Source: Synergistaceae bacterium
GTDB taxonomy: Bacteria > Synergistota > Synergistia > Synergistales > Aminobacteriaceae
Assembly (NCBI GenBank): GCA_017540085.1
Contig: JAFYBQ010000028.1
Span: 1 to 64,000, forward strand
Reading direction: 5' to 3'
Length of the DNA stretch: 64,000 bases
This document shows, one piece after another, positions 20,510-62,878 of the stretch (position 1 is its first letter; the number at the start of each line of letters is the position of its first letter). A model generated the notes under the pieces. It did no database searches, had not been told where the DNA came from, and saw only the letters and a program-made list of their open reading frames with translations. The position numbers were made by a program, and so were the translations under genes.

Positions 20510-20554
20510 ACCGCAAAAATTACAGGGGGCAAAATTCCTTCACCCCCTGCATTC

Positions 20555-20782
20555 TTATTCCTCTTCTGTTATTTCGTGATACCCCGCAACGTTAATCTTC
20601 TTTTCTCCCGCAATCCCTTCAACATTTTCCTTCATGTCGCAGGGAAACTCGCAGGCTAATCCGCACGATGATGACAATTTTCTTGGCACCGGGGCAATAC
20701 GCGCGGGGATTCCTGATTTCCGGCATGACCGCTCAAAGAGTAACGCCGCGCTTGTAGTCTTGAATGTGGCAAGGCAGAACAT
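20555..20782 (-). CDS. DUF3343 protein, putative Se/S carrier
   Basis: A 75-residue protein of the DUF3343 type, a small family proposed to carry selenium or sulfur as a persulfide-like group. The start contains FKTTSAALLFERSCRKSGIP and the middle the conserved PVPRKLSSSCGLAC, whose Cys-Gly is the proposed carrier site. Its ATG follows the grdD stop with no gap, so it is translated as the last gene of the grd operon. Position next to selenoprotein genes and within 15 kb of selA, selB and selD supports a selenium role; the chemistry is not proven by sequence. Confidence 0.75.
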   Translation of the reverse strand: MFCLATFKTTSAALLFERSCRKSGIPARIAPVPRKLSSSCGLACEFPCDMKENVEGIAGEKKINVAGYHEITEEE

Positions 20783-21952
20783 TTACAGATAGCCGTTAGC
20801 TTTGAGAATTTCGGCGGCCTTCTCCATGTGTCTGCGCGGCATTTTGATTACCGGCCCTGTGCAGCCCATTGCGGACTCGGCGTAAATTCCTTCCTTCCAC
20901 AAAACTTTCACCGCGTTGTCGATCTCAAGTACATCAATTCCGTGTAATTCGTCATCTGTCGGTTCTGCGGGAGGTGCTTTCACTTCCTCTTCAGCCTGAG
21001 CCGCTTTAGGTGTGAGTCCGTCAATTTCATCATCAAGCCCGGCATTTCTGGCGGCTTTGAGTTCGTCAGCAACTTTTTCCGGCAATCCTCCCTGAATCAC
21101 AGCGGCTGTGAACGCAAGAGCATTCGCGATGACTGGCGCGCCTGATGCACGGGAGACGATAGAGACGACATGCTTCCATCCCTCGCCGCATGAAGGCCCG
21201 TAGCCCCAGCCGGTTGCCTCGTAGCTTCCGCCTGTCGTGAATGACGAGAACATTTTGACGAGAACATTCCCCGTAAGAGTGTCAGTAACGCAAACGTCAA
21301 CAGCTCCCGTTAAGATGTCATTTCCGCGCAGAACACTTCCGCCGTCAGCGCGGGTCGACTCACCGAACGTTATCGGGTAGCCTTTCTCCTTCATTCGGGA
21401 CAGCGCACGGAAAACGGGCTGTGCTGTGTCAACATTGAGTATGCCGACAGTAGGATTTGCGATTCCGAGAGACTTTGCGACCGCGATTCCGTAGACTGCG
21501 TTGCGTAACATTGCCTCGCCGCGTACGGTTGATGATGTTCCTGTTGTTGACGCGAGAATCATAGGCCGGCCTCTTCCGGGCGTGAAGACTCTTCCGATTG
21601 TCGTTACGCCGAGCGGGAACGGGAAATGCATTGCCACAGCTCCGGCGACTTCCCCGGACTTCACAGCCTCTTCAAGCCTCGCGGGAATATCGCACTCCTC
21701 GCAGTCTATGTACTCTAAATCCTCGTAGCCTTCAACTTTCGGGCCGATAAGGACGGGGATAACTGCTGATGATGTCTGAAGGGCTAATCTTGCGCCCTTT
21801 GCGATTTCCTTTGCGCCGTGTTCGCTCCCGGAGGCCATGAGTCCGACTCTGACTTTAGGCCCGCCGGATTTCGCGCTCTCTATAATCTCGCTGAGAGCCT
21901 CGCCGACTAATTTTTTGATTGCGTCAGACATTTTAGGCCAGCTTTCCGGCAA
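20783..21952 (-). CDS. grdD: Glycine/sarcosine/betaine reductase component C, alpha subunit
   Basis: A 389-residue PlsX-like protein matching GrdD. Component C releases the acetyl group, bound as a thioester after reduction, onto phosphate to give acetyl phosphate, so the reaction yields ATP through acetate kinase. Recognisable segments include VRVGLMASGSEHGAKEIAKG, AVAMHFPFPLGVTTIGRVFT and a C-terminal AMGCTGPVIKMPRRHMEKA. It overlaps grdC by 20 bases. The same-strand order trxA-grdA-grdC-grdD supports the assignment. Confidence 0.92.
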   Translation of the reverse strand: MPESWPKMSDAIKKLVGEALSEIIESAKSGGPKVRVGLMASGSEHGAKEIAKGARLALQTSSAVIPVLIGPKVEGYEDLEYIDCEECDIPARLEEAVKSGEVAGAVAMHFPFPLGVTTIGRVFTPGRGRPMILASTTGTSSTVRGEAMLRNAVYGIAVAKSLGIANPTVGILNVDTAQPVFRALSRMKEKGYPITFGESTRADGGSVLRGNDILTGAVDVCVTDTLTGNVLVKMFSSFTTGGSYEATGWGYGPSCGEGWKHVVSIVSRASGAPVIANALAFTAAVIQGGLPEKVADELKAARNAGLDDEIDGLTPKAAQAEEEVKAPPAEPTDDELHGIDVLEIDNAVKVLWKEGIYAESAMGCTGPVIKMPRRHMEKAAEILKANGYL

Positions 21953-23477
21953 CTTCGCCTAACGCTTCAAGTATCATTGCTTTGATGTCGTCTTTGCTGA
22001 CTGCTGACGTAGGCGCAACGGGTTCAGGCTTCTCGATGAGGAATGACGCACCGTCAGCAAGATTCGTGAGTCTCGCGAGGAACAATGAGCCTTTGCCGAT
22101 GATCATAGCGCGCTTGATTTTGCCCTCGTTGATGAGTTCACATGCCGGGCCTATGAAGGGAACGCCCGCGGGAATATGTCCCTGTGTGTGTGCGTAGCCT
22201 ATTGTGCCGTGCTGCTTGATGAAGTCCATCATTGCGGGTTTCTCGATTGCCTTCTTCATTACAGCGAGTGCCGCAATCATTTTGATGTTCGCTAAAGGTA
22301 CGTTGCCAGCTCCGGCGGGTTCGGTGATTTCGTGGTTCTGCAGTTCCGGCGCGAATCTGTCAACATCTGCAAACGTGAGTCCGGCTTTCTGCAAAGGCTC
22401 AAACGTCAGCGCACTTGTTACGGCCTGAGGTGCGCCGCCCGCGCCTACCGTGTGTTTTCCGAGAACGTCAAGACGCATTACGGGCATTGTACCGTCATCA
22501 GGCACAATCAGAACGGCGAAACTTCCGACGCAGTCCTCAAGCGCGAGGAGTCCTTTCTTCACGTGGTCGCGTGAGTTCATATAGAGCTTGGGAATTGACC
22601 CGCCCGCGACAACCGCAATATTTTTCCTTGCACCTGAAGCAACCTGTGCCGCCGCGTTAATCATGGCGTTTACAGGCCCGGCGCAGAATCCGCGTACATC
22701 ACAGCCAGAAGCGTTTGTGCAGCCTGCAACTTCAGCGATTGCCTTTGCGAAATTTCCGCCTGCCCTCTGTCCTACGTCCCCGGCTCCTTCCTCTGAACAC
22801 TCAATCACGAAATCGAGGTCAAGGGGATTCATTCCGCTGTTCTTGAGGAGGTGCAGAAGTGCGAGGACTCCTGACGCTTTGCCCGCAAGATTCTCCATCA
22901 GCACATGAGCCGTCAAGCACTGATCTGTAGGATGTCCGCTCCTGATACAGCCGACAACCTTCCCGCCGAAATACAGGGGGAGTCCGGCGCGTTCTTTGTA
23001 TTCCGTCTCAATCTCCGCAAGATCGTGCATATTCTTGGGACGGACGACTCTTTTCACGATTGCTTCTGTGATTACGGGGTCTTCCGCCAATTTCTTGCTG
23101 ACTTCCTCCGCAAATGATTTCTCAAGCCACACAAGCTCGAACTCATCACATGCGCTGATTAATCCGAGAAACTCATCTTCCGGCATAAGCTCGCCGAATT
23201 TCCCGTAGCGTTTCGCTTTCTCATCGGGAAGAAGGTTATCAACCCACGGAGTTTTGAGTCCTTCAAATTCCTCGTAGGAGATTCCGCCGATGTATGTCTG
23301 ATTCGGCGCATAGTGGAGCGCGTGATCGTAGCTCTGCAAATGTTTCGGGAGCGCGTCTAAATACTCCTGCTCTTTTCCGCTGTGGAATGCCTCATAGGGT
23401 GTCCCGCCGTAATGGCTTCCTGTTTCGGGGGCGTGATTGAGGCAGTATGAGTAGCTTTTGATTCCGACTTTTGACAT
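21933..23477 (-). CDS. grdC: Glycine/sarcosine/betaine reductase component C, beta subunit
   Basis: A 514-residue thiolase-fold protein matching GrdC. The start carries the family stretch SYCLNHAPETGSHYGGTPYE, a probable acyl-accepting Cys lies in NASGCDVRGFCAGPVNA, and the C-terminal half has AHTQGHIPAGVPFIGPACEL. GrdC receives the carboxymethyl-derived acetyl from selenoprotein A and passes it to phosphate together with GrdD. A GGAG site precedes the ATG. Between grdA and grdC lies a strong stem-loop that may set different expression levels. Confidence 0.93.
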   Translation of the reverse strand: MSKVGIKSYSYCLNHAPETGSHYGGTPYEAFHSGKEQEYLDALPKHLQSYDHALHYAPNQTYIGGISYEEFEGLKTPWVDNLLPDEKAKRYGKFGELMPEDEFLGLISACDEFELVWLEKSFAEEVSKKLAEDPVITEAIVKRVVRPKNMHDLAEIETEYKERAGLPLYFGGKVVGCIRSGHPTDQCLTAHVLMENLAGKASGVLALLHLLKNSGMNPLDLDFVIECSEEGAGDVGQRAGGNFAKAIAEVAGCTNASGCDVRGFCAGPVNAMINAAAQVASGARKNIAVVAGGSIPKLYMNSRDHVKKGLLALEDCVGSFAVLIVPDDGTMPVMRLDVLGKHTVGAGGAPQAVTSALTFEPLQKAGLTFADVDRFAPELQNHEITEPAGAGNVPLANIKMIAALAVMKKAIEKPAMMDFIKQHGTIGYAHTQGHIPAGVPFIGPACELINEGKIKRAMIIGKGSLFLARLTNLADGASFLIEKPEPVAPTSAVSKDDIKAMILEALGEVAGKLA

Positions 23478-23560: not shown

Positions 23561-24037
23561 TTATTCAATAGCGTTCTTGCTGTACTGGTCGCGCATACCT
23601 TTGACTGCCGCGGTTAATGCTTCAGGATCAAGCACCATTTCCATCATGCTAATCTGCTCTTCCCATGCTGCGGGGTCGCACTCAGCTCTGATTACGGGGT
23701 CAAATACGTGATATACAGGGAGTTCCAACGAAACTCCGGCGAGGGGTCCTGCGTAGGTCGGGTCGCCTGCTGTAACTGTCTCGGCGTAAATCTCTGCGCC
23801 CTCTGCGTCAGATGATCCGAGAATTACAATGCAATCCGTACCGTATTTCTCTCCAGCGTCCTTTACACGCTGCTGATTCTGCAGGTCCATCGCTCCTGCG
23901 GCCGTTCAGACAAAGCACTCGGTAGCTGAGAATATTATCTCCGCTCCGCTGTCTTTGAGACATGCTTCCATTGCAGGCCCGGGAACGCCGTCGCGCTCGC
24001 CGAGAAGCAATAATTTCTTACCTGCAAGTTTCCCCAT
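23561..24037 (-). CDS. grdA: Glycine/sarcosine/betaine reductase selenoprotein A (Sec44)
   Basis: Reading through one in-frame UGA (23908-23906) gives a 158-residue protein of exactly GrdA size. The diagnostic motif CFVUTAAGAMD places selenocysteine at residue 44, as in known GrdA. Selenoprotein A takes the carboxymethyl group from component B onto its Sec and hands it to component C as a thioester; thioredoxin then reduces the mixed selenide-sulfide. The ATG at 24037 begins [20 protein letters not shown], the family N terminus. A plain ORF call would miss the first 49 codons. A SECIS-like hairpin follows the UGA. trxA is immediately upstream. Confidence 0.96.
23881..23908 (-). promoter_or_regulatory. 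SECIS-like hairpin of grdA
   Basis: After the UGA and six bases, GCAGG pairs with CCUGC across a nine-base loop AGCGAUGGA. Bacterial SECIS elements sit directly downstream of the UGA inside the coding sequence and are bound by SelB. Confidence 0.6.
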
Positions 24038-24171
24038 GTCAAGACACCATCCCTTCATTTAATTTTTTGTTTGCTGACTGATTTTTATTCCGTGCTGATT
24101 TTTTGCTGACTTACACTTTCACTTTACGTTTAACGCTTTGAGGATTACCTCCGACATTAATGGCTTTCCCT

Positions 24172-24236
24172 GCTCCTGCCTCCCCTGCGCAAGGGGAGGT
24201 GCCTGAAAGGCGGAGGGGTCGCGGAGGGGTCGCCGA
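24172..24236. repeat. Dispersed palindromic element, copy 3 (trxA-grdA spacer)
   Basis: CCTCCCCTGCGCAAGGGGAGG is a near-perfect palindrome. It is followed by a tandem GGAGGGGTCGC unit and GGAGGGGTCGCCG. The tandem part is identical over 24 bases to the reverse complement of part of the selD copy. It lies just downstream of trxA, before grdA, outside coding sequence. Confidence 0.75.
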
Positions 24237-24248
24237 AGCATTCCTCGT

Positions 24249-24587
24249 TTAGCCCATAAGCTCGTCAACCTTTGCTGTTATCGTCTCGATTGTAAGGTCA
24301 TCGCCTCCGAGCCGTGCCACTTCTGCGCCGTCCTTGTAGAAAAGGAATGTGGGCTGTGCCATTACTGCCGGGCGTACCATCATTGCGACTCTCCTGTTCT
24401 TTGACGTGTCGACTGAGCAGAACTTGAATTTTCCCTCGTACTTGGGATTGTCGGCTAACTCGTGGTACTTGGGCATTAACGCCATGCAAGGCCCGCACTT
24501 AGGCCCCCAGAAGTCTAACACTGCGGGTACGGGGCTGTTCTTGAACTCGGCCTCGAAGTTTTCCTTTGTGATTTCGGTGATTGCCAT
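24249..24587 (-). CDS. trxA: Glycine-reductase-associated thioredoxin
   Basis: A 112-residue thioredoxin fold. The active site is in FWGPKCGPCMALMPKYHELA: the WGPKC form, rather than WAPWC, is typical of thioredoxins encoded with grd genes. The cis-Pro is in MAQPTFLFYKDG. It reduces the oxidised selenoprotein A during each turnover and is itself reduced by TrxB, encoded at 34667. It heads the trxA-grdA-grdC-grdD-DUF3343 operon. Both Cys are intact. Confidence 0.93.
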   Translation of the reverse strand: MAITEITKENFEAEFKNSPVPAVLDFWGPKCGPCMALMPKYHELADNPKYEGKFKFCSVDTSKNRRVAMMVRPAVMAQPTFLFYKDGAEVARLGGDDLTIETITAKVDELMG

Positions 24588-24976
24588 CTTTGATTTTCAC
24601 CTCGCTGTCCTTATGGAATGATTGTATTTTCCTGATTCGATTTGATTCCGTCAATACGTGATTCATTTGATTAACGGTTAATGATTTTTGTTATGGCCGA
24701 AAATTTCCCGCGCCGTTAAAATTTTAGACGCTGATAACATTTTTATTCCAACAAAATTTTCACACACACTTCACTTTTACGAGGCGGACTCTTTCTGAGG
24801 AATAAAGGCCGTGAATTTGTCGCTGTGATTTCCGGGAGCTGATTCAGAGTCAGCGGTGCGGTTTTCATGGAGTCGGTTTGTTAATGGCCATAATGATTCG
24901 GGAAGGGCGTTAAGGTTTTATGCGCGTGAAATTCTGCGTGCATGTTTCAACAACAATAAGGATGTGAAATTCAATA
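24588..24976. other. 389-base divergent intergenic region between trxA and grdE
   Basis: No gene is visible. The region must hold the promoters for both halves of the reductase system. A small hairpin, GCTGA-TTCAGAG-TCAGC (about 24839-24855), could be an operator. I looked for a glycine riboswitch and did not find the paired aptamer core. No confident -35/-10 pair was found on either strand. Confidence 0.4.
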
Positions 24977-26287
24977 ATGAGACTTGAAATAGGAGCGTTT
25001 CACGTCAAGGATATAAAGTTCGGCGACAAGACAGCATACAATGCCGGAGTCCTTACGGTGAACAAAGAAGAACTGCTCAAGGTCGTAAAAGAAGACGAGC
25101 ATATAACGACAGCGGATTTCAGAATCGTACACCCGGGCGACAACGTGATACTCTGCCCCGTGAAGGAAGCCGTAGAAATGCGGTGCAAAGTTTCAGGCGG
25201 ACACGGAATTTTCCCCGGCGTTCTGTCAGAAATGGAAGTAGCGGGTTCAGGCCGTACACATTGCCTTCAGGACTGCTCATTAATCGTAGTCGGTGAACAC
25301 GCAGGCGGATTCCAGGACGGCGTAATCGCTATGGGCGGGAAATACCAGCACCATACGATTTTCGGCGACATGGTGAATCTTGTGCTTGTTGCTGACACTG
25401 ACGAGGATTTTGAGCGGCACGAACAGCAGAAGAAGAATCACGCTCTCAGATGGGCGGGAATGAGACTCGCGGAATACATCGGCCAGTGCGTAAAGGACTT
25501 AGAGCCGGAAAATATCGAGGTCTACGATTTACCGTCAATCTACGAGAGAAGCGAAGAAGTCAACAAACTTCCGAGAGTAGTATACGTATTACAGCCTCAG
25601 ACTCAGATGGAAGCGATGGGCTACAACACATTGATTTACGGCTGGGACGGGAATCACATTCTGCCCACGTTCATGCACCCGAATGAACTTCTTGACGGCT
25701 GTATGGTGTCAGGCTCATTCATGCCTACGTCATCAAAGATTTCAACCTACGAGTTTGCGACGAATCCGATGATTAAGAGACTCTACGCACAGCACGGAAA
25801 GACAATAAACTTCCTCGGCGTAATAATGTCGACTCTTAACGTCAAAATGGATGAGAAAGTCCGCTGTGTGAAAATGGCCGGGCAGATCGCAACATCACTC
25901 GGCGTTCAGGCGGCTGTTGTCGCTGAAGAGGGCTACGGCAACCCCGATGTCGATTACACGGCTATGCTTGTTGAGCTTGAGAGACTCGGAATCAAGACGG
26001 TAGGACTCTCGGACGAATGCACAGGGCGCGACGGAGCATCACAGCCCCTTGTGTCAATGAACCCCGCAACTAACGCGCTTGTTACGACCGGCAACGTTTC
26101 GCAGATGTACGAGTTCCCCGCAGGAATGGAAGTTATCGGAGAGCTTGAAGCACTTGCGAGGGACGGCAATTCGGGCGGCTGGGAAGGCTGCATAAAGCCG
26201 GACGGGTCATTTGTCATGGAGAATAACGGAATGTTCTGCGCGAATCACATCAGCGGTTACTCCATGAGGACATGCGCGGATTTCTAG
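24977..26287 (+). CDS. grdE: Glycine/sarcosine/betaine reductase component B, proprotein subunit
   Basis: A 436-residue proprotein of the GrdE/GrdG/GrdI family. It is cleaved at a Cys whose backbone becomes a pyruvoyl group, which forms a Schiff base with the substrate amine. Here the Cys at residue 242, in NELLDGCMVSGSFMPTSS, matches the known cleavage position. The C-terminal part carries VGLSDECTGRDGASQPLVSM. GrdE (glycine), GrdG (sarcosine) and GrdI (betaine) cannot be told apart by eye. The BCCT transporter two genes downstream favours betaine or another N-methylated substrate, so the symbol is given at family level. Confidence 0.88.
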   Translation: MRLEIGAFHVKDIKFGDKTAYNAGVLTVNKEELLKVVKEDEHITTADFRIVHPGDNVILCPVKEAVEMRCKVSGGHGIFPGVLSEMEVAGSGRTHCLQDCSLIVVGEHAGGFQDGVIAMGGKYQHHTIFGDMVNLVLVADTDEDFERHEQQKKNHALRWAGMRLAEYIGQCVKDLEPENIEVYDLPSIYERSEEVNKLPRVVYVLQPQTQMEAMGYNTLIYGWDGNHILPTFMHPNELLDGCMVSGSFMPTSSKISTYEFATNPMIKRLYAQHGKTINFLGVIMSTLNVKMDEKVRCVKMAGQIATSLGVQAAVVAEEGYGNPDVDYTAMLVELERLGIKTVGLSDECTGRDGASQPLVSMNPATNALVTTGNVSQMYEFPAGMEVIGELEALARDGNSGGWEGCIKPDGSFVMENNGMFCANHISGYSMRTCADF

Positions 26288-26310
26288 TATAAAGGGGGGA
26301 AATCAGAATC

Positions 26311-27624
26311 ATGAAAGCTATACATTACATCAACCAGTTCTTTGCAGGAATCGGCGGCGAGGAAATGGCCGATCAGACTCCGGTCTTCCACGACAAATTA
26401 ATCGGCTGCTCGATGATGCTCAATGCCATGTGCAAGCCTGACATCGAAGTAACAAACACGATCGTCTGCGGAGACAACTACATCACGAATCACACGGAAG
26501 AGGCGTTGAAGGAGATTTTCGCGTTCCTCGACACAAAGGAGTTCGGGATATTCTTTGCGGGGCCTGCATTCATGGCAGGGCGTTACGGAGTCGGCTGCGG
26601 AATCATCTGCAAGGCCGTATCAGAACGCTATCACGTGCCTGTAATCACCTCAATGAACGAGGAGAACCCCGGCGTTGAGGAGTACAAAGCGGCGGCGTAT
26701 ATCTTCAAGGGCGGGCGCAAAGCTACGTTCATGAAGCAGGACGTTACACCGATGGCGGCATTCGCGAAAAAGATCGCAAAGGGTGAAGAGCTTTTACCGG
26801 CAGCACAGGAAGGTTATTTCCCGCGCGGAATCCGTATGGAAATTCCTGAGCCTAACGGAGTCATGGCGGCTGACAGAGTTATTGATATGCTCCTCAAGAA
26901 GATTAACGGCGAGCCTTTCCAGACAGAGTTAATCATTCCGAGCATGGAGAAGATTCCGCCCGCAGCACCGTTGAAGGATCTCGCACACGCTACAATCGCT
27001 CTTGTTTCGTCAAGCGGAGTCGTACCCGTCGACAACCCCGACAGGATTCAGAGTGCTTCCGCTCAGAAATGGGGCAAGTACAACATTGCAGACAGGGACA
27101 ATTTACCCGAAGGCGTGTACAAGACGATTCACGCAGGATTTGACCCGGCGGCAATGTGCGCAGTTCCTGACAGAGGAATCCCGCTTGATGCTATGCGCTA
27201 CTTTGAGAAGCAGGGCAAAATCGGCAAGGTCTACGATTGGTTCTATGTTACAGTCGGAACAGGAACGACACAGGCATTTGCGGCGAAATTCGGCCGTGAA
27301 ATCGCAAAGGAGCTTCACGAGGCGGGAGTTGACGCGGTAATTCTCACATCGACCTGAGGAACCTGCACGCGTTGCGGTGCAACGATGGGAAAAGAAATAG
27401 AGCGTACAGGAATCCCCGTAACAGTAATGTGCAACCTTATCGATGTTGCGAAAACAGTCGGGTCAAACAGAATGGTGCAGACAGTATCAGTGCCTTACCC
27501 GCTCGGAGACCCCGAACTCAGCAAAGAGGCAGAATGGCAGCTCAGGACTTCACGTGTTGAAGCAGCACTTAACGCCCTTGCTACACCGGTTGAAGAGCCG
27601 ACAGTCTTCCCGTCAAAATTCTAG
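26311..27624 (+). CDS. grdB: Glycine/sarcosine/betaine reductase component B, selenoprotein subunit (Sec349)
   Basis: Reading through the in-frame UGA at 27355-27357 joins the upstream 348 codons to a continuation ending at 27624: 437 residues, full GrdB length. The motif TSTUGTCTRCGATMGKEIE gives Sec349 in the family UxxCxxC arrangement. The Sec attacks the substrate held by the pyruvoyl subunit and forms the selenoether that is passed to selenoprotein A. The start is ATG 23 bases after grdE. A SECIS-like hairpin lies 12 bases after the UGA. GrdF (sarcosine) or GrdH (betaine) identity is possible, for the reason given for the proprotein subunit. Confidence 0.95.
27355..27384 (+). promoter_or_regulatory. 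SECIS-like hairpin of grdB
   Basis: Twelve bases after the UGA is a perfect six-base-pair stem, CGUUGC-GGU-GCAACG (27370-27384). The GGU apical loop matches the loop that SelB reads in the E. coli fdhF SECIS. Distance and loop both fit. Confidence 0.8.
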
Positions 27625-27634
27625 TGCAAAAATT

Positions 27635-27673
27635 ATGCTGGGAGTTGTGAGAATCAGCCCCCGGCATTTTTTT
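27635..27673 (+). terminator. Rho-independent terminator after grdB
   Basis: Stem ATGCTGGGAG pairs with CCCCCGGCAT (one U-G wobble and one end mismatch) and is followed by seven T. The BCCT gene starts 38 bases later, so it is reached by read-through or by its own promoter. Confidence 0.75.
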
Positions 27674-27710
27674 ACGCGCAAAAAATCACAAAAGGAGCTG
27701 AGTTTTTCAC

Positions 27711-29282
27711 ATGTCCGACAAAAAGAAAGACGAAGGCCGCGATTTTCTCGTAACGGGATCAGTCAGCGGCGTGGAAAAGTCAACATCAAAAGTTAATTCC
27801 GTCTACATAATCTCAATCGCAATCACATTCGCAATCGTAGCATGGGGCTATCTCGCGCCGGAAAATTTCGGAGGGTTCGCAAACGCGCTTTTCGGAGGAC
27901 TCACAAAATATTTCGGCTGGGGCTATCTCCTCACAATGAATGCGTTTGTCATCTTCTGCCTCGTAATGGCGTTCAGCAGATTCCGCAATGTCAGACTCGG
28001 TAACCCTGAAGACCGCCCGGAGCACAGCAATATTTCATGGTTCGCAATGCTTTTCTCCGCCGGAATGGGAGTCGGACTCGTCTTCTACGGAGCAGGAGAG
28101 CCGCTGATACACTTCCAGAATACGCCGTTCGGAGCGGAGCCGGGATCTATTCAGGCAGCAAGAGACGCAATGCAGATTTCCTTCTTCCACTGGGGGCTTC
28201 ACCCTTGGGCGGGCTATGCAGTAATCGCTATGCCTATGGCCTATTACCAGTTCAGGAGAAATTCACCGGGACTCATCAGCTCATTGTTCATTCCGATTTT
28301 CGGACAGAAGGCCGTTGATGGGTGGTTCGGGAAATTTATTGATGTTCTCGCAATCTTCGCGACTCTCGCGGGAATCACAACGTCATTAGGACTCGGAACG
28401 TTACAGCTTAACAGCGGATTGAACGAAATCGGCGGCATCGACAAAACGACAATGATACAGGTAACAATCATCATCATACTTGCGGTGCTTTACACAGGTT
28501 CGGCGGTTCTGGGAATCGACAAGGGCATAAAGTTTGTGGCGAATCTCAATCTCGTAATATGCCTCGCGTTAATGGTGCTGTTATTTTTCGTAGGGCCGTC
28601 GCTCCCGATTCTTGAGTCATTGATGACAGGTATCGGCGATTTCACAAGCGGACTCGTAAAAGAGAGTTTCATGATGGCACCGTACGGAGGAAAATACGCG
28701 GATCATCTCAAGAATTGGACGCTCTACTATTGGGCGTGGTGGATTGCCTGGGCACCTTTCGTCGGCTCATTCGTCGCAAGAATTTCACGCGGAAGGACAA
28801 TCGGCGAATTTGTTGCGGGCGTTCTCATTGTTCCGGCGTTAGGGAGCTTCACATGGTTTGCGATTTTCGGAACGTCAGCATTACATCTCCAGCTCGTTAA
28901 AGGAATCGACATCGCCACGCAGGTAACGAAAGATATATCTGTGGGAGTCTTTGCGCTCTACAAGTATTACCCGATGGGCTTCATTATGTCCGTAACAATG
29001 CTCGTCTTAATCACAACATTTTTCGTTACGTCTGCGAACTCTGCAACGTTCGTGTTGTCTATGTACTCGAATCACGGCGACCTCAACCCGTCAAAGTCAA
29101 AGATGGGCGTATGGGGAGTCCTCATGGCCGCGCTTGCTATCGTTTTGCTGATGACGGGAGGACTTCAGAACTTGCAGACAATCTCATTAACGGCTGCTCC
29201 TCCGTTTGCGATCATAATGGTGTGCGCTTGCTGGTCATTGTGGAAGTCTCTGTGCAAAGACGAAAAGGAAGGCAAATTGTAG
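27711..29282 (+). CDS. BCCT-family betaine/carnitine/choline transporter
   Basis: A 523-residue inner-membrane transporter with 12 membrane segments. The BCCT signature is clear: NWTLYYWAWWIAWAPFVGSF (about residues 336-355) followed by ARISRGRTIGEF. GMGVGLVFYGAGEPLIHF is in the third segment region. BCCT proteins take up quaternary ammonium compounds with sodium or by exchange. Lying directly after a grd component B pair, it probably brings in betaine (or a related methylamine) as electron acceptor for the reductase rather than only as an osmolyte. AAAGGAG lies upstream of the ATG. Confidence 0.93.
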   Translation: MSDKKKDEGRDFLVTGSVSGVEKSTSKVNSVYIISIAITFAIVAWGYLAPENFGGFANALFGGLTKYFGWGYLLTMNAFVIFCLVMAFSRFRNVRLGNPEDRPEHSNISWFAMLFSAGMGVGLVFYGAGEPLIHFQNTPFGAEPGSIQAARDAMQISFFHWGLHPWAGYAVIAMPMAYYQFRRNSPGLISSLFIPIFGQKAVDGWFGKFIDVLAIFATLAGITTSLGLGTLQLNSGLNEIGGIDKTTMIQVTIIIILAVLYTGSAVLGIDKGIKFVANLNLVICLALMVLLFFVGPSLPILESLMTGIGDFTSGLVKESFMMAPYGGKYADHLKNWTLYYWAWWIAWAPFVGSFVARISRGRTIGEFVAGVLIVPALGSFTWFAIFGTSALHLQLVKGIDIATQVTKDISVGVFALYKYYPMGFIMSVTMLVLITTFFVTSANSATFVLSMYSNHGDLNPSKSKMGVWGVLMAALAIVLLMTGGLQNLQTISLTAAPPFAIIMVCACWSLWKSLCKDEKEGKL

Positions 29283-29380: not shown

Positions 29381-29421
29381 GGAATTGCATAGAGGCAGAA
29401 TATCAGAAGGAGTTGTTGACA

Positions 29422-30810
29422 TTGGACAAAGGGCAGAAGCTCCGGGCTATTCCTGCAATGGATATAGTTCTCGGACTTGAATGGGTGCAATCATGGCTAG
29501 AGTCTCTCGGACGAATGAGAGTTAAGCGGATAATCACGCGGGAGATGTCAGAGATTCGGCGGTCTATTCTTGAGGATGACGGGGATTTTTCGCCTGATGA
29601 TTTCCGTGACTCATGCCTGAATGCGTTTGCTTCTGCCTCACGTCCCCTTCTCCGGCGCGTCGTGAATGCTACGGGAGTCGTAATTCACACGAACTTGGGA
29701 CGCTCATTAATCGCAAGTGAAGCTGTCTCGGCCATGTCGGAAATTGCCGGGAGCTACAGCAACTTAGAGTACGACCTCAAAGCCGGCGCGAGGGGTCAGA
29801 GAAATTCACACGTTGAGGATTTATTGTGCGCTCTCACTGGTGCGGAGTCATCGTTCGTCGTCAACAATAATGCCGGGGCGGTCATGCTCGCATTGTCGGC
29901 ACTCGCAAAAGACTCAGAGGTCATTGTTTCACGCGGAGAGCTTGTAGAGATTGGCGGGTCATTCCGAATCCCTGACATAATGGAGTTATCCGGCGCGACT
30001 CTTCACGAGGTCGGCACAACAAACCGCACTCACCTTTACGATTACGAGCGGGCAATCAATGAGTCAACAAAAATGCTCATGAAGATTCACCCGTCAAATT
30101 TCAGGATTGAAGGCTTCACATCATCACCCGAACGCAAAGAATTATCACGCCTCGCAAAAGAACACGGCCTAATCTTTATGGAAGATGCCGGAAGCGGATT
30201 GCTTGTTGACGGTGAAATAATCGGCCTGTCGTCAAACAGCGGGGAAATTAGCATACGCGAATGTATAGAGGCAGGCGCGGACATCGTAACATTTTCGGGC
30301 GATAAGATACTCGGCGGGCCTCAGATAGGCGGGATTGCAGGAAAGAAGAAATACATTGACCGACTGAAGAAATATCCCCTTGCGCGGGCGTTGAGGTGCG
30401 ACAAAGTTACGCTAGCAGGATTCGAGGCTACATTGAGGCTTTACGCTCAGGGAAAATATGATGACATTCCGACTCTGAGAATGATACGGCGCGACATTGA
30501 CGGAATGAAATCACAGGCTGAGTCGCTCGCTGAAAGTTTGCGGGAAAAAGTGAAAGCTGAGATTCGAATCATTGAGACTGAAGACGCTACCGGGGGAGGC
30601 TCCTGCCCTGAGATAAAGTTGCGGGGATATGGAGTCGCCGTCAAGCATGAGTCATACGGGGCGGGATATATTCAGAAACTTTTGCGCGGACTCGATGTCC
30701 CGATTCTTTGCGGTGCGCGTGAAAATGAGATTGTGATTCACGTTCGAACGCTTCAAGATTCTGACGCTGAATCAATTTCGGCAAGTCTGGCAGGTGTCCT
30801 CAATGCGTGA
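29422..30810 (+). CDS. selA: L-seryl-tRNA(Sec) selenium transferase
   Basis: A 462-residue PLP enzyme that converts seryl-tRNA(Sec) to selenocysteinyl-tRNA(Sec) using selenophosphate. The N-terminal region has RRVVNATGVVIHTNLGRSLI, and the PLP lysine lies in TFSGDKILGGPQIGGIAGK. Of several in-frame TTG codons, the one at 29422 is chosen because it lies nine bases after AGAAGGAG; TTG at 29413 or 29416 would be too close. It overlaps selB by eight bases. The chain selA-selB-selD is one operon. Confidence 0.95.
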   Translation: MDKGQKLRAIPAMDIVLGLEWVQSWLESLGRMRVKRIITREMSEIRRSILEDDGDFSPDDFRDSCLNAFASASRPLLRRVVNATGVVIHTNLGRSLIASEAVSAMSEIAGSYSNLEYDLKAGARGQRNSHVEDLLCALTGAESSFVVNNNAGAVMLALSALAKDSEVIVSRGELVEIGGSFRIPDIMELSGATLHEVGTTNRTHLYDYERAINESTKMLMKIHPSNFRIEGFTSSPERKELSRLAKEHGLIFMEDAGSGLLVDGEIIGLSSNSGEISIRECIEAGADIVTFSGDKILGGPQIGGIAGKKKYIDRLKKYPLARALRCDKVTLAGFEATLRLYAQGKYDDIPTLRMIRRDIDGMKSQAESLAESLREKVKAEIRIIETEDATGGGSCPEIKLRGYGVAVKHESYGAGYIQKLLRGLDVPILCGARENEIVIHVRTLQDSDAESISASLAGVLNA

Positions 30811-32683
30811 AATATCGTTAGTGTTAGGCACGGCAGGCCACATAGATCACGGCAAAACAGCACTCATCAACGCATTAACGGGAATCAACTGCGACCGCCT
30901 AATAGAGGAACGCAAGCGCGGAATCACAATAGAGTTAGGGTTCGCGCCTCTGAAACTTGAGGACGGGAGAGTCGTAAGCGTTATTGATGTCCCCGGCCAT
31001 GAGAGATTCATTCGCCAGATGGTAGCGGGGGCTTCAGGAATTGACGCGGCATTACTCGTGATTGCGGCTGATGAGTCCGTAATGCCTCAGACTCGCGAGC
31101 ATTTAGCGATTATGGAGCTTCTTGGCGTTCATGACGGGCTTATAGCAGTAACAAAAATCGACCGCGTTAAAGATGATGAAGGAATGCTTGAGCTTGTTAT
31201 TGATGACGTGAAAGAATTTGCGCGGGGAACGTTCCTTGAGGGAAAATCGGTTGTGCCTGTGTCGAGTGTTACGGGCGAGGGACTCGATGACTTGCGGCGG
31301 GAGATCACAGCACTGATTGACCGCGTGAAAGTGAGACCGAGAAGCGGGGCGTTCTTTCTTCCTGTTGACCGTGCGTTTACTGTTTCGGGATTCGGGACTG
31401 TCATAACGGGGACTGCGTATCACGGCACGGCTCATCCTTCAGACCGAATAGAAGTATTACCGTCCGGGCGCGAGGGAAGAATACGAACGCTGCAGGTTCA
31501 CGGGCAGAATGTAGAGAGCGCATACGCAGGACAGAGAGTCGCGGCGAATCTCGCGGGGATTGATATTGATGATATTTCGCGGGGTGATGTCGTATGCCAC
31601 AAGGGAATATTCAGACCCACGAAATGTTTTGAGGCCGTCATAAAAATTCTCCCGAACGTGAAAGAACCCATAAAGCATTGGCAGCGGGTACACGTCTGCA
31701 CAGGAACATCGGAAGCATTAGCCCGCGTATCACTCCTCACAACAAAGCAGATTGAGCCGGGAGAGTCTCAGCCCGCACAGCTCGTACTTGAAGAGCCTGT
31801 AGTCTGCACATACGGACAAAGATTCATTCTCCGATTCTACAGCCCGCTGATCACAATCGGAGGCGGGGAAATCATCTACCCTTACTCCTACAAGCCTAGA
31901 GGAGCGGCCATGCGTGCGAAAATCCTTCAGCGGATAGACAGCCTAAAGTCAGCAAAAAATCCCGCAGAAAGATTCGCATACCTCATCAATGAAGCCGGAG
32001 TCATGCAAAAGTCTGAAGCGTTGCAGGTGTTGCAGGACACACAAGAGAATTTAGACTCATTAACTGAAAAATTATCGTCAGCCGGAAAAATAGTTATTGC
32101 AGACAACAATATTATGTCGGAAAATTACTGCGGTGAAATCATGAACTCCCTTAAAGAATCCGTTAAGCAGTATCAATCACATTATCCCGCAGAAAAAGGA
32201 ATGCCCCTAGAGGAGGCTAATGTTTCGCGCTCAGTCATAAATCTTGCTGTCGAACGAGGAATTATAGCGATGACTGATGGCAAACTTCACACGCCTGATT
32301 TTGTCCCTGAGAATGACGAGGCATTTACCGCAAATATTGAGGCCGTCAGAAATTTCTGCATGAGTCGGAAATGGCAGCTCCCTACGCTTGACGAACTCAG
32401 GAAAGAATTATCGCTCCCGGAAAAAGGCGGGCAAAAATTCACGAAAATTATTCAGGCAATGAGGAATGACTCATCACTCGCATTAATCCCGGAAGGCTAT
32501 GTGTTAATACGTGAGCTTGAAGACGAAATGCGGAGTCTTCTGCGCGGACTCGGAAGCCAGGTAACATTAGCGCAGGTTCGAGACGCAACTGGCAGCACAC
32601 GGAAATACATTCTCCCTATACTTGAGTATTTCGACAGCAAAGGCTACACGAGAAGGGCGGGTGATGTTCGTGTCGTGCTGTAA
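30803..32683 (+). CDS. selB: Selenocysteine-specific elongation factor SelB
   Basis: A 626-residue GTPase that brings Sec-tRNA to the ribosome at UGA codons marked by a SECIS hairpin. The GTP motifs are GTAGHIDHGKTALI, DVPGHERFIRQM and VTKIDRV. EF-Tu-like domains 2 and 3 follow, and the C-terminal 250 residues form the winged helices that bind the SECIS, ending in TGSTRKYILPILEYFDSKGY. The ATG at 30803 is inside the selA end. Its own end overlaps selD by 20 bases. Its targets visible here are grdA, grdB and selD. Confidence 0.96.
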   Translation: MREISLVLGTAGHIDHGKTALINALTGINCDRLIEERKRGITIELGFAPLKLEDGRVVSVIDVPGHERFIRQMVAGASGIDAALLVIAADESVMPQTREHLAIMELLGVHDGLIAVTKIDRVKDDEGMLELVIDDVKEFARGTFLEGKSVVPVSSVTGEGLDDLRREITALIDRVKVRPRSGAFFLPVDRAFTVSGFGTVITGTAYHGTAHPSDRIEVLPSGREGRIRTLQVHGQNVESAYAGQRVAANLAGIDIDDISRGDVVCHKGIFRPTKCFEAVIKILPNVKEPIKHWQRVHVCTGTSEALARVSLLTTKQIEPGESQPAQLVLEEPVVCTYGQRFILRFYSPLITIGGGEIIYPYSYKPRGAAMRAKILQRIDSLKSAKNPAERFAYLINEAGVMQKSEALQVLQDTQENLDSLTEKLSSAGKIVIADNNIMSENYCGEIMNSLKESVKQYQSHYPAEKGMPLEEANVSRSVINLAVERGIIAMTDGKLHTPDFVPENDEAFTANIEAVRNFCMSRKWQLPTLDELRKELSLPEKGGQKFTKIIQAMRNDSSLALIPEGYVLIRELEDEMRSLLRGLGSQVTLAQVRDATGSTRKYILPILEYFDSKGYTRRAGDVRVVL

Positions 32684-33872
32684 TGAGTCGCAAGCCGTCA
32701 AAAAGAGACTCACGGAGCTTTCACACTCCAGCGGGTGAGCTGCGAAAATAGGTCCGGCGGATCTAAAAGAAGTGTTATCGGGAATCCCTCAGATTTACGG
32801 CGACAGGATTCTAGCCTCATGGAACGGGAACGAGGACGCGGCAGTCTTTGAGCTTGATGAGAATCGTTACGGCATTTTGACGGTTGACTTCATCACGCCA
32901 GTAGTTGATGACGCATTCACGTGGGGACAGATTGCGGCGGCTAATTCGCTGAGTGATGTTTTTGCGATGGGAGGCCGTCCGATTGTTGCGCTTAATGTCG
33001 TATGCTTCCCGACAAAATATCTTGAGCTTGACGTTCTGAAATCGATACTTGAGGGAGGATTCGAGCGTGTGAGGACCGCAGGAGCTTTTCTTGTGGGAGG
33101 ACACAGCGTGCAGGATGACGAGCCTAAATACGGGCTTGTTGTTTACGGTGAGGCGGAGAAGTTAAAACTTTGGCGCACAACGGGAGCGCGTGAAGGCGAC
33201 AAACTCATTCTCACAAAGCCCCTCGGAACAGGGATCGCAGTAACAGCCATCAAAGCCGGAATGATTGAGGACGAGTCAACAGTAACAGAAGCTACTGACA
33301 GCATGAAGACTCTAAACATTGTGAATCTCCCTGATGATTTGCACATGGCCGTGAATGCCGCTACAGATGTTACGGGATTCGGACTCGCGGGTCATCTTCT
33401 CGATATGTTAGGCGGGAGTCTCAACTGCGTAATCAATCCGAAAATTTTGCCGACAATCGCGGGAGTGAAGGAACTTGCTGACATGGGATTAGTCCCTGAA
33501 GGCGCGTATAGGAACATGGCCATGTATCAAGACAATGTTGACGTAGTTCCGAGATTCTGCGGCGACCCCGCGGCGACCCCTCCGCGACCCCTCCCTGCCC
33601 TCCCCTTTCGCAGGGGAGGCGAGAACCCCGGCGACTCTCTCGTCCCCCATGCCAATAAGGGATACAGGGGGGTAAGTAGCGGGCTTAATCAGTCGGATAT
33701 TGATATGATATATGACGCTCAGACATCGGGCGGGCTGTTATTGGCCGTGAGTCCCGGAAAATCTCAGGCGGTACTGAATCACATCAGGAAGGAGGGATTC
33801 GGAAGGGCAGAAATAATCGGCGTGTTCACGAAAGGGAATGGCAGAATAATTGTTAGTGAAAGAAGGCTTTAA
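32664..33872 (+). CDS. selD: Selenide, water dikinase, selenocysteine-containing, with in-frame element
   Basis: SelD makes selenophosphate from selenide and ATP. Reading through an in-frame UGA at 32736-32738 restores the normal N terminus: LTELSHSSGUAAKIGPADLK, with Sec25 at the catalytic position usually held by Cys or Sec. The ATG at 32664, inside the selB end, has AGAAGGG six bases upstream. The ATP-binding and core segments are VDFITPVVDDAFTWGQIAAA and LVGGHSVQDDEPKYG; IYDAQTSGGLLLAV is near the C terminus. Between residues about 301 and 337 the chain contains some 37 Pro/Gly/Arg-rich residues absent from the family, encoded by a palindromic element. Total length is 402, against about 350 usual. 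Confidence 0.93.
32736..32765 (+). promoter_or_regulatory. SECIS-like hairpin of selD
   Basis: Ten bases after the UGA is a seven-base-pair stem (one G-U pair), UAGGUCC-GGC-GGAUCUA (32749-32765). Its spacing and GG-containing three-base loop are close to those of the grdB hairpin. Confidence 0.75.
33562..33680. repeat. Dispersed palindromic element, copy 5 (inside selD)
   Basis: A long composite copy: tandem GCGACCCCTCC units, the palindrome CTCCCCTTTCGCAGGGGAGG, a unique core, and a degraded CCCCC-ATGCCAATAAGGG-AGGGGGG end. Bases 33611-33648 are identical, as reverse complement, to 61771-61808 in the glpB-like gene. The insert is open in the selD frame and interrupts a conserved region before IYDAQTSGG. 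Confidence 0.85.
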
Positions 33873-61463: not shown

Positions 61464-62878
61464 GTGAAAAAATTGACGTGTTAATCATCGGGGCAGGGCC
61501 TGCAGGAGTCGCGGCGGGAATCGGCGCAAAGCGTGAAGGGGCTGAAAATGTCGTAGTGATTGAGCGTGATTGGGACTTGGGCGGAATATTGCAGCAGTGC
61601 ATTCACCCGGGATTCGGTCTGCGGACGTTCAAAGAGGAGCTGACCGGGCCGGAATACATGCACAGATTCATTCAGCAGGCACACGAGGCGGGAGTCGAAT
61701 TTCGCACAAATACGATGGTATTTCAGATTGATGCCCCATCTTTACCCCCCTTTAATTCCCCCCTTGGCAGGGGGGACGAGAGAGTCGCCGGGGTTCTCGC
61801 CTCCCCTGTGCAAGGGGAGGTGGCCGAAGGCCGGAGGGGTCGCAACATCGCACAAGGAGAGGTGTCCGAAAGCCGGAGGAGTCGTAGCGGTGTTACCGTG
61901 TGGACAATGAACAAAGAGCGCGGAATCGAGTCGCTTAACCCGTCCGCAATTGTCCTCACAATGGGCTGTCGCGAGCGTCCCCTAGGCGCAATCCGAATCC
62001 CCGGAACACGCCCAGCAGGAATCTACACAGCCGGGACTGCTCAAAGATTCGTCAACATGGAAGGCTACATGCCGGGAAAACGTGCGGTGATTCTCGGTTC
62101 GGGCGACATAGGGCTAATCATGGCGCGGCGAATGATCTGGGAGGGCGCAACGGTTGAAGGTGTCTACGAGGTAATGTCATGGCCGGGCGGATTAAGGCGC
62201 AACATTGCTCAGTGCCTCGACGATTACGGGATACCATTCCATTTGCGGACGACTGTAACACGCATTCACGGCAACGACAGGCTAGAGGGCGTTACGGTCG
62301 CAGAAGTTGACGATCATATGACACCGATAGCCGGGACAGAACGCTACGTAGAGTGTGATACGCTCCTGCTTGCCATCGGGCTTATACCTGAGAACGAGTT
62401 ATCCCGCATGGCCGGAGTCGAAATTCACCCCGTAACGGGCGGGCCTGTCGTGAATGATTTATTGCAGACGAGTAACCCCGCAATATTCGCCGCCGGAAAT
62501 GTCGTTATCGTCTATGATCTTGTCGACAACGTAAGCGACGAGGGACTAATAGCCGGAGCGAACGCCGCAAAATTCGCCGCCGGGAAAATTTCACCGTCAG
62601 CAAGAATCCCGGTCAAAGGCGGGGAAAATGTCAGGCTATATTCTCCGCAAATTGTTACGGGCGAAACTGACGCAACAATCTTCATGCGCGTAACTCATCC
62701 CATAGAGGAAGCGTGCAGGGTCTTTGCTGTCTGTGATAACGGGGCGGAATTATATTCGCAGAGACTGAGATATGCCCGACCCGGCGAAATGAACGAGGTT
62801 AGAATCAATGCGGAAAAATTGCGCGGAGCAGGAAAAGTTTCAGGCATAACGATAGATATACAGGCGGTGAAAAAATGA
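61460..62878 (+). CDS. GlpB-like NAD(P)/FAD oxidoreductase with in-frame palindromic element
   Basis: A 472-residue flavoprotein with FAD loop VLIIGAGPAGVAAGIGAKRE, the conserved CIHPGFGLRTFKEELTG, and a second nucleotide loop VILGSGDIGLIMARRMIWEG. It is the partner of the GlpA-like protein. Residues about 93-144 (PPFNSPLGRGDERVAGV onward, then EVAEGRRGR and EVSESRRSR) are foreign to the family and come from palindromic element copy 7; the flanks NTMVFQID and VTVWTMNKERG would otherwise join directly. The insert lies in an exposed loop position before the strand carrying VLTMGCRERP. Confidence 0.88.
   Translation: MSEKIDVLIIGAGPAGVAAGIGAKREGAENVVVIERDWDLGGILQQCIHPGFGLRTFKEELTGPEYMHRFIQQAHEAGVEFRTNTMVFQIDAPSLPPFNSPLGRGDERVAGVLASPVQGEVAEGRRGRNIAQGEVSESRRSRSGVTVWTMNKERGIESLNPSAIVLTMGCRERPLGAIRIPGTRPAGIYTAGTAQRFVNMEGYMPGKRAVILGSGDIGLIMARRMIWEGATVEGVYEVMSWPGGLRRNIAQCLDDYGIPFHLRTTVTRIHGNDRLEGVTVAEVDDHMTPIAGTERYVECDTLLLAIGLIPENELSRMAGVEIHPVTGGPVVNDLLQTSNPAIFAAGNVVIVYDLVDNVSDEGLIAGANAAKFAAGKISPSARIPVKGGENVRLYSPQIVTGETDATIFMRVTHPIEEACRVFAVCDNGAELYSQRLRYARPGEMNEVRINAEKLRGAGKVSGITIDIQAVKK
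61738..61888. repeat. Dispersed palindromic element, copy 7 (inside glpB-like gene)
   Basis: The longest copy, about 150 bases. Its modules are ACCCCCC-TTTAATT-CCCCCC-TTGGCA-GGGGGG, a unique core, the palindrome CTCCCCTGTGCAAGGGGAG, and two tandem AGGTG-CCGAA-GCCGGAG-GTCG units. Bases 61771-61808 equal the reverse complement of 33611-33648 in selD. No stop codon falls in the gene's frame. Confidence 0.85.

Follow-up and report, generated by a model that had tools for sequence, protein, structure and literature searches.

The gene considered here lies among glycine reductase (grd) genes in the window, by which we mean the whole 64,000-nucleotide stretch of Synergistaceae DNA that was analysed (contig JAFYBQ010000028.1). 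The following features of the window enter the argument:

20521..20551, minus strand: hairpin followed by a T-run, a probable intrinsic terminator, immediately 3' of the DUF3343 stop
20555..20782, minus strand: DUF3343 (PF11823) putative Se/S carrier, 75 aa, E 4.3e-22; type A, with C3, C20, C40, C44, C48 and H69
20783..21952, minus strand: grdD, component C alpha (NF040747, 557.6 bits, cut-off 350)
21933..23477, minus strand: grdC, component C beta (NF040746, 702 bits)
23561..24058, minus strand: grdA, selenoprotein A, with one in-frame TGA (NF040748, 245.5 bits; PF04723 with 1 TGA)
24249..24587, minus strand: thioredoxin gene, first of the minus-strand unit (PF00085, E 2.8e-18)
24920..26287, plus strand: grdE-like component B subunit in the divergent unit (PF09338, E 2.5e-176); a read-through ORF whose real start may be internal
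26311..27624, plus strand: GrdB-type selenoprotein B with an in-frame TGA (PF07355; best model betaine GrdH NF040795, 663 bits, cut-off 775)
27358..27395, plus strand: SECIS element inside selenoprotein B (RF01990, 54.4 bits)
after the component B genes, plus strand: BCCT (betaine/carnitine/choline) transporter (PF02028)
29413..30810, plus strand: selA (PF03841, E 2.7e-139)
30794..32683, plus strand: selB (GTP_EFTU and SelB-wing_3)
32664..33872, plus strand: selD, with Sec25 if translation starts at ATG 32664; it contains an in-frame insertion missing in the four relatives compared

The minus-strand order is thioredoxin, grdA, grdC, grdD, DUF3343 and hairpin. The DUF3343 reading frame runs from an ATG at 20782 to 20555, and the TAA of grdD (20785-20783) abuts that ATG with a gap of 0 nt. 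An earlier note on this DNA had placed the ATG directly at the grdD stop, exactly as found, and had called the gene fused into the grd operon; the genes do abut, but the proteins are separate, so that "fused" is a loose word. It had also pointed to a Sec25 form of SelD nearby, and the selenocysteine indeed falls at residue 25 if selD is read from the ATG at 32664. The hairpin (20551-20521) has a 14-pair stem, the longest among the sites found, and sits where a terminator is expected; the scan returned four sites of this kind, fewer than the mean of 6.2 for shuffled sequence. Because the hairpin and its T's stand directly behind the DUF3343 stop, the gene probably closes the grdA-grdC-grdD unit. 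It is more than a chance ORF, on the basis of its conserved junction with grdD and a median dN/dS of 0.10 (22 genus members, 100 of 231 pairs usable). A profile search found this gene to be the sole member of its family in its genome.

Two observations concern the divergent plus-strand genes. Within 24920-29282, the top models for the component B subunits are sarcosine GrdG and betaine GrdH, both with scores under the cut-off. Given these best models and the BCCT transporter behind the genes, the substrate of the reductase in the window may be betaine rather than glycine. The selD insertion (33556-33690) is in frame and repeat-like, and lies just before the QTSGGLL motif. It looks like a palindromic element of the kind inserted into protein genes, and stretches resembling it also occur at 24178-24235 and 61764-61820.

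The membership of the protein in DUF3343 is clear: residues 3-70 match PF11823 with 77.8 bits against a gathering cut-off of 25. PF11823 was the sole Pfam match up to E 0.01, with no match to the TusA/YedF family (PF01206), and the PHROGs and NCBIfam profiles gave zero matches. As a single-domain protein of 75 aa, it is a little shorter than the 80-100 aa typical of the family (PMC5322559); the Pfam model has 69 positions. All 127 of the DUF3343 domains that we aligned from the phylum have Cys40, which follows a P-x-P-R motif. These domains were sorted into type A (97 domains, 96 genomes), type B (13) and type C (17), type A being defined by an SCGxAC motif, to which C44 itself belongs, together with an N-terminal ATF-like motif. 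Unlike the family at large, the type found in the window has further conserved residues besides C44, namely C3 (96 of 97 domains), C20 (88), C48 (89) and H69 (93). Scanning GTDB species contigs for the two type A motifs, with strict patterns that relatives with other letters escape, returned 71 loci, 70 of them in Synergistota; the remaining locus, in a planctomycete (E 8e-4), was taken as chance.

CxxC forms the metal site of HMA/CopZ metallochaperones. No CxxC occurs in the 75 residues. A four-ligand metal site of C3, C20, C48 and H69, suggested by the order of the strands, was ruled out as an obligate feature, since C20 and C48 are missing in different sequences (for example, L010 and L015). 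The AlphaFold model (pLDDT 83.4, pTM 0.68) predicts a ferredoxin-like b-a-b-b-a-b fold (E-H-E-E-H-E) and is least certain around Cys40 (residues 31-40) and at the C-terminus. Fold searches return just this common arrangement: the best VIA match has a Z of 7.8, the match to TM0320 (Z 6.9) lies inside the range of common arrangements and is weak and unspecific, and Foldseek gave nothing at E <= 0.001 (best 0.011). A sequence search of the PDB returned no relevant structure, with two matches at E 0.55.

The junction seen in the window is conserved within its genus. Among sampled genus members with both genes, 19 of 21 have grdD and DUF3343 adjacent on the same strand; in the two others (G110 and G133), the genes are on separate contigs, with DUF3343 deep within its contig. 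Between the grdD stop and the DUF3343 start, 18 of the 19 linked genomes have 0-6 nt and G068 has 80 nt. Start codons of the linked copies are ATG in seven, TTG in seven and GTG in five, so that 12 of 19 are non-ATG. For 92 of the 96 type A genomes (in the other four, the start or the upstream sequence could not be used), we computed the best duplex with the anti-Shine-Dalgarno sequence, which has a median of -3.8 kcal/mol in linked copies vs -9.5 kcal/mol in unlinked ones. A duplex at -6 kcal/mol or below was present in 0 of 19 linked copies vs 94.5% of 73 unlinked copies (p 1.6e-9, with the 19 linked copies being one lineage and not independent). Since the linked copies have lost their Shine-Dalgarno sequence, their translational coupling to grdD is likely. 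The earlier note had proposed that DUF3343 is translated with grdD, a proposal that the short gaps, the non-ATG starts and the Shine-Dalgarno loss support well. In G068 (L189), the 80 nt between the two genes are a hairpin-like insert, and its DUF3343 also has no Shine-Dalgarno sequence, a case that speaks against the coupled model.

Being last in a trxA-grdA-grdC-grdD unit and coupled to its last reductase gene, DUF3343 could serve the GrdCD complex as an accessory protein, assembly factor or thiol-redox factor and, for example, protect or reduce a GrdD cysteine. A constant glycine reductase subunit would be expected in grd operons generally, and among the 72 genomes outside the genus that have both genes, none shows the same-strand adjacency, though contig ends may hide some; in nine of the 72, the genes lie 3.4-11.6 kb apart on opposite strands. 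Moreover, one member of the genus (G056) retains DUF3343 without grdA or grdD, and in Terrisporobacter, DUF3343 is carried on a proline-reductase plasmid while grd is chromosomal in three type strains (PMC10564238). We therefore regard a GrdCD helper as quite unlikely.

The 19 linked copies and the copy of G056 form one clade (support 99/95, from 70 columns), in which G056 stands on a long branch that leaves its position unsure. Because the linked copies group in this way, the junction is probably a single event retained across many species rather than 19 independent ones. A single relocation would also suffice if the gene had moved behind grdD by chance and stayed because it was linked or conveniently expressed there, unrelated in function to the demand of grd, and joint loss with the linked grd genes could then be mechanical. 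However, the junction outlasts the decay of the surrounding gene order: ilvC stands 0.9 kb away from DUF3343 in the window, yet not one of the 15 other linked genomes that carry ilvC and grdD has the two within 10 kb of each other, to which contig ends may contribute. The transporter gene YedE, on another contig in the genome of the window, also has the same distribution as DUF3343. Taking both sides together, we consider such hitch-hiking very unlikely.

To find whether DUF3343 co-occurs with grd and selD, as the earlier note had suggested checking, we used 149 Synergistota genomes, 38 of which belong to the genus of the window. Profile matches were found for DUF3343 in 102, grdD in 102, selD over the cut-off in 103 and grdA in 107. 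Type A and grd (grdA or grdD) occur together in 92 genomes, with type A alone in 4, grd alone in 21 and neither in 32. The corresponding counts are 83, 13, 20 and 33 for selD, and 80, 16, 12 and 41 for YedE. Within the genus, they are 21, 1, 2 and 14 for grd and 22, 0, 1 and 15 for YedE, as raw counts that ignore kinship. Fourteen control genomes had DUF3343 matches in two (E. coli and M. jannaschii) and grdA or grdD in none.

Kinship was taken into account with a tree of one gene (PNPase) for 36 of the 38 genus members and two outgroups; G060 and G090, which had no PNPase match, were left out. Type A changes state at least 10 times on this tree. Across eight independent pairs contrasting in type A on well-supported branches, grd differs the same way in 7.2, not at all in 0.8 and the opposite way in 0 (averages, median p 0.016), and for selD the values are 6.3, 1.7 and 0 (median p 0.031). 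In the genus, then, DUF3343 is gained and lost along with grd and selD, and YedE has a similar distribution. Two control genes compared without a tree gave no such pattern: ilvC is present in 19 of 22 members with type A and in 15 of the 16 others (p 0.62), glpK in 19 of 22 and 12 of 16 (p 0.43). Ten of the 16 members that lack type A have a completeness of 93-99% and the other six of 79-92%; the co-loss of DUF3343 with a physically linked operon is partly mechanical. Three members with selD and no DUF3343 were kept in the counts; in G054 and G090, grdA is near a contig end where the remaining operon is expected, so that the absence may reflect the assembly, and in G119, the selD contig is 4.3 kb.

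As 21 of 113 grd-positive genomes have no type A gene, six of them more than 95% complete (G006, which has another DUF3343 type, G027, G042, G062, G096 and G118), type A DUF3343 is not essential for grd. Conversely, 4 of 96 type A genomes are without grd and 13 of 96 without selD over the cut-off. Only five selD-positive genomes in the phylum lack grd, two of which have type A. A tie specific to the grd enzyme is inseparable here from a tie to selenocysteine use, because grd and selD nearly coincide in Synergistota, and we dropped the former. Of the earlier claim that the family is tied to a selenoenzyme, the link to selenium is supported by the co-loss, the YedE distribution and the gene neighborhoods described below; the link to the grd enzyme itself is not, given the absence of the adjacency outside the genus and the few genomes with selD alone.

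The closest DUF3343 copy without grd, that of G056 (L084), lies in a selenium-gene island: DUF3343 comes first in a run of DUF3343, YedE, TusA and lyase genes that is divergent to SelA-SelB-SelD. In family f4, ten type A genes are found 153-270 bp from a divergent YedE. In the genome of the window, contig C16 holds genes for YedE, a TusA-like protein and a lyase (TIGR01977) within approximately 4.4 kb; a two-component pair, identified by eye, lies between them. However, 29 type A loci were mapped beyond the genus and family f4, and not one of them has a neighbor of the YedF, lyase, YedE, TusA or SelD type; this lowers our confidence in a perselenide carrier a little. A neighbor cluster at one locus (L055), at first SelB-like, has, by eye, the sequence of a TypA-like GTPase and was not counted. 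A second DUF3343 type in nine genus members (PTPREADKCCG, L073-L081) is found beside activase-like and 2-hydroxyacyl-CoA-dehydratase-like genes, as judged by eye, with an adjoining YedF-like gene in seven of the nine maps. In G138 and G140 (L087 and L202), a divergent DUF3343 has a non-Sec SelD approximately 100 nt downstream, with YedF-like and lyase-like genes after it in G138.

Plasmids provide further examples. In a collection of 72,556 plasmid records, 10 match DUF3343, eight of them from Terrisporobacter; the three that were opened carry selD-selA-selB-LysR-lyase-DUF3343 beside prd genes. The two others are a Vescimonas plasmid with selD-yedF-DUF3343 and an Enterococcus raffinosus plasmid with lyase-YedE-DUF3343. 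The Terrisporobacter plasmids (L216, L220 and L221) are compact selenium kits for proline reductase that include a LysR regulator as well as DUF3343. The 21-kb Terrisporobacter plasmid has been described with its lyase and hypothetical genes listed, and the word DUF is absent from the main text of that report (PMC10564238). Like the window, it packages a Stickland selenoreductase with selD, selA, selB and DUF3343, here together with a lyase; it differs in that the reductase is for proline, not glycine or betaine, and in that DUF3343 follows the lyase rather than grdD.

DUF3343 could also be a general carrier of sulfane sulfur and selenium with a mostly sulfur cargo, in which case its link to grd would reflect the sulfur and thiol chemistry of an amino-acid fermenter. 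The family was found in organisms lacking SelD, with no Se-specific clade (Lin et al. 2015, PMC5322559), type A is present in 2 of the 31 phylum genomes without grd and selD, and the 29 loci without selenium neighbors fit this explanation as well. It accounts poorly for the loss of the gene with grd and selD on the genus tree and its YedE-like distribution, which ilvC and glpK do not share, or for the all-selenium island around the closest grd-less copy. A mostly sulfur cargo is, in our judgment, unlikely. The earlier note would have given up its reading if DUF3343 genes were frequent in genomes without selenium traits and showed no co-occurrence; the published occurrence of the family in SelD-lacking organisms goes half of the way to this.

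The idea that DUF3343 carries selenium is not new, having been proposed by Lin et al. in 2015 (a Se/S carrier, PMC5322559) and repeated in a 2022 review (PMC9312934). The passages on DUF3343 in these two papers do not mention grd, and a literature search on PF11823 returned nothing relevant; an account of the link under another name may exist. The gene in the window resembles the DUF3343 of Lin et al. in its HMM family, small size, highly conserved cysteine and, in some relatives, selenium-gene context. It differs in being probably coupled to grdD, whereas the neighbors reported there are YedF and Sec lyase (PMC5322559). What is added here is the grdD junction, the coupling signature, the tree-aware co-loss, the selenium island and the plasmid kits.

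We consider it somewhat probable that DUF3343 is a perselenide carrier that feeds SelD and is co-translated with a selenoenzyme operon in the genus of the window. The gene, its family, the junction, the probable terminator, the conservation, the coupling signature, the co-loss and the selenium neighborhoods of some relatives are established, and from these we infer the cargo, the donor, the acceptor and the use of the coupling. DUF3343 would be a small carrier with the predicted ferredoxin-like fold, in which the family-wide Cys40, in the loop after PVPR, would accept selenium as a Cys-S-SeH perselenide. The donor would be a supply module made up of the YedE transporter, a TusA/YedF-like protein and a selenocysteine-lyase/cysteine-desulfurase-like enzyme. 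The carrier would then pass its selenium to SelD, the Sec25 loop of which would make selenophosphate for SelA. The earlier note saw support for selenide delivery to SelD in the operon structure; in our reading, such delivery is a proposal, and selenium binding by DUF3343 is putative. In the genus of the window, the gene may have been relocated to follow grdD, lost the ribosome-binding site that it once had and become translationally coupled, so that the output of the carrier could track that of a selenoenzyme with a high demand for selenium. As a more tentative extension, a dedicated carrier of this kind might match selenium delivery to demand in real time, with C3, C20, C44, C48 and H69 serving as a multi-site relay or store rather than as a single-Cys shuttle.

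If this model holds, DUF3343 would resemble the mammalian selenide carrier PRDX6, a cysteine protein that hands selenium on to the machinery of Sec synthesis; PRDX6 is a peroxiredoxin, of another family, and its role has been shown experimentally (PMC11327102). In bacteria, thioredoxin-dependent delivery is likewise a candidate route from selenite to SelD via protein cysteines, although thioredoxin is a general redox protein with Cys33 and Cys36 and not a dedicated carrier (PMC8538045). The Km of SelD for selenide is in the toxic range (PMC8538045), and according to a 2026 review, neither the form of selenium that SelD uses in vivo nor its donor system has yet been fully worked out (PMC13188914). 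DUF3343 has its appeal as a candidate in its probable coupling to a selenoenzyme operon, its loss along with selenium use in the genus and its presence on plasmids beside selenium genes. With 75 aa and one obvious residue to mutate, C40, it allows the delivery of selenium to SelD to be put to the test in a single small protein.
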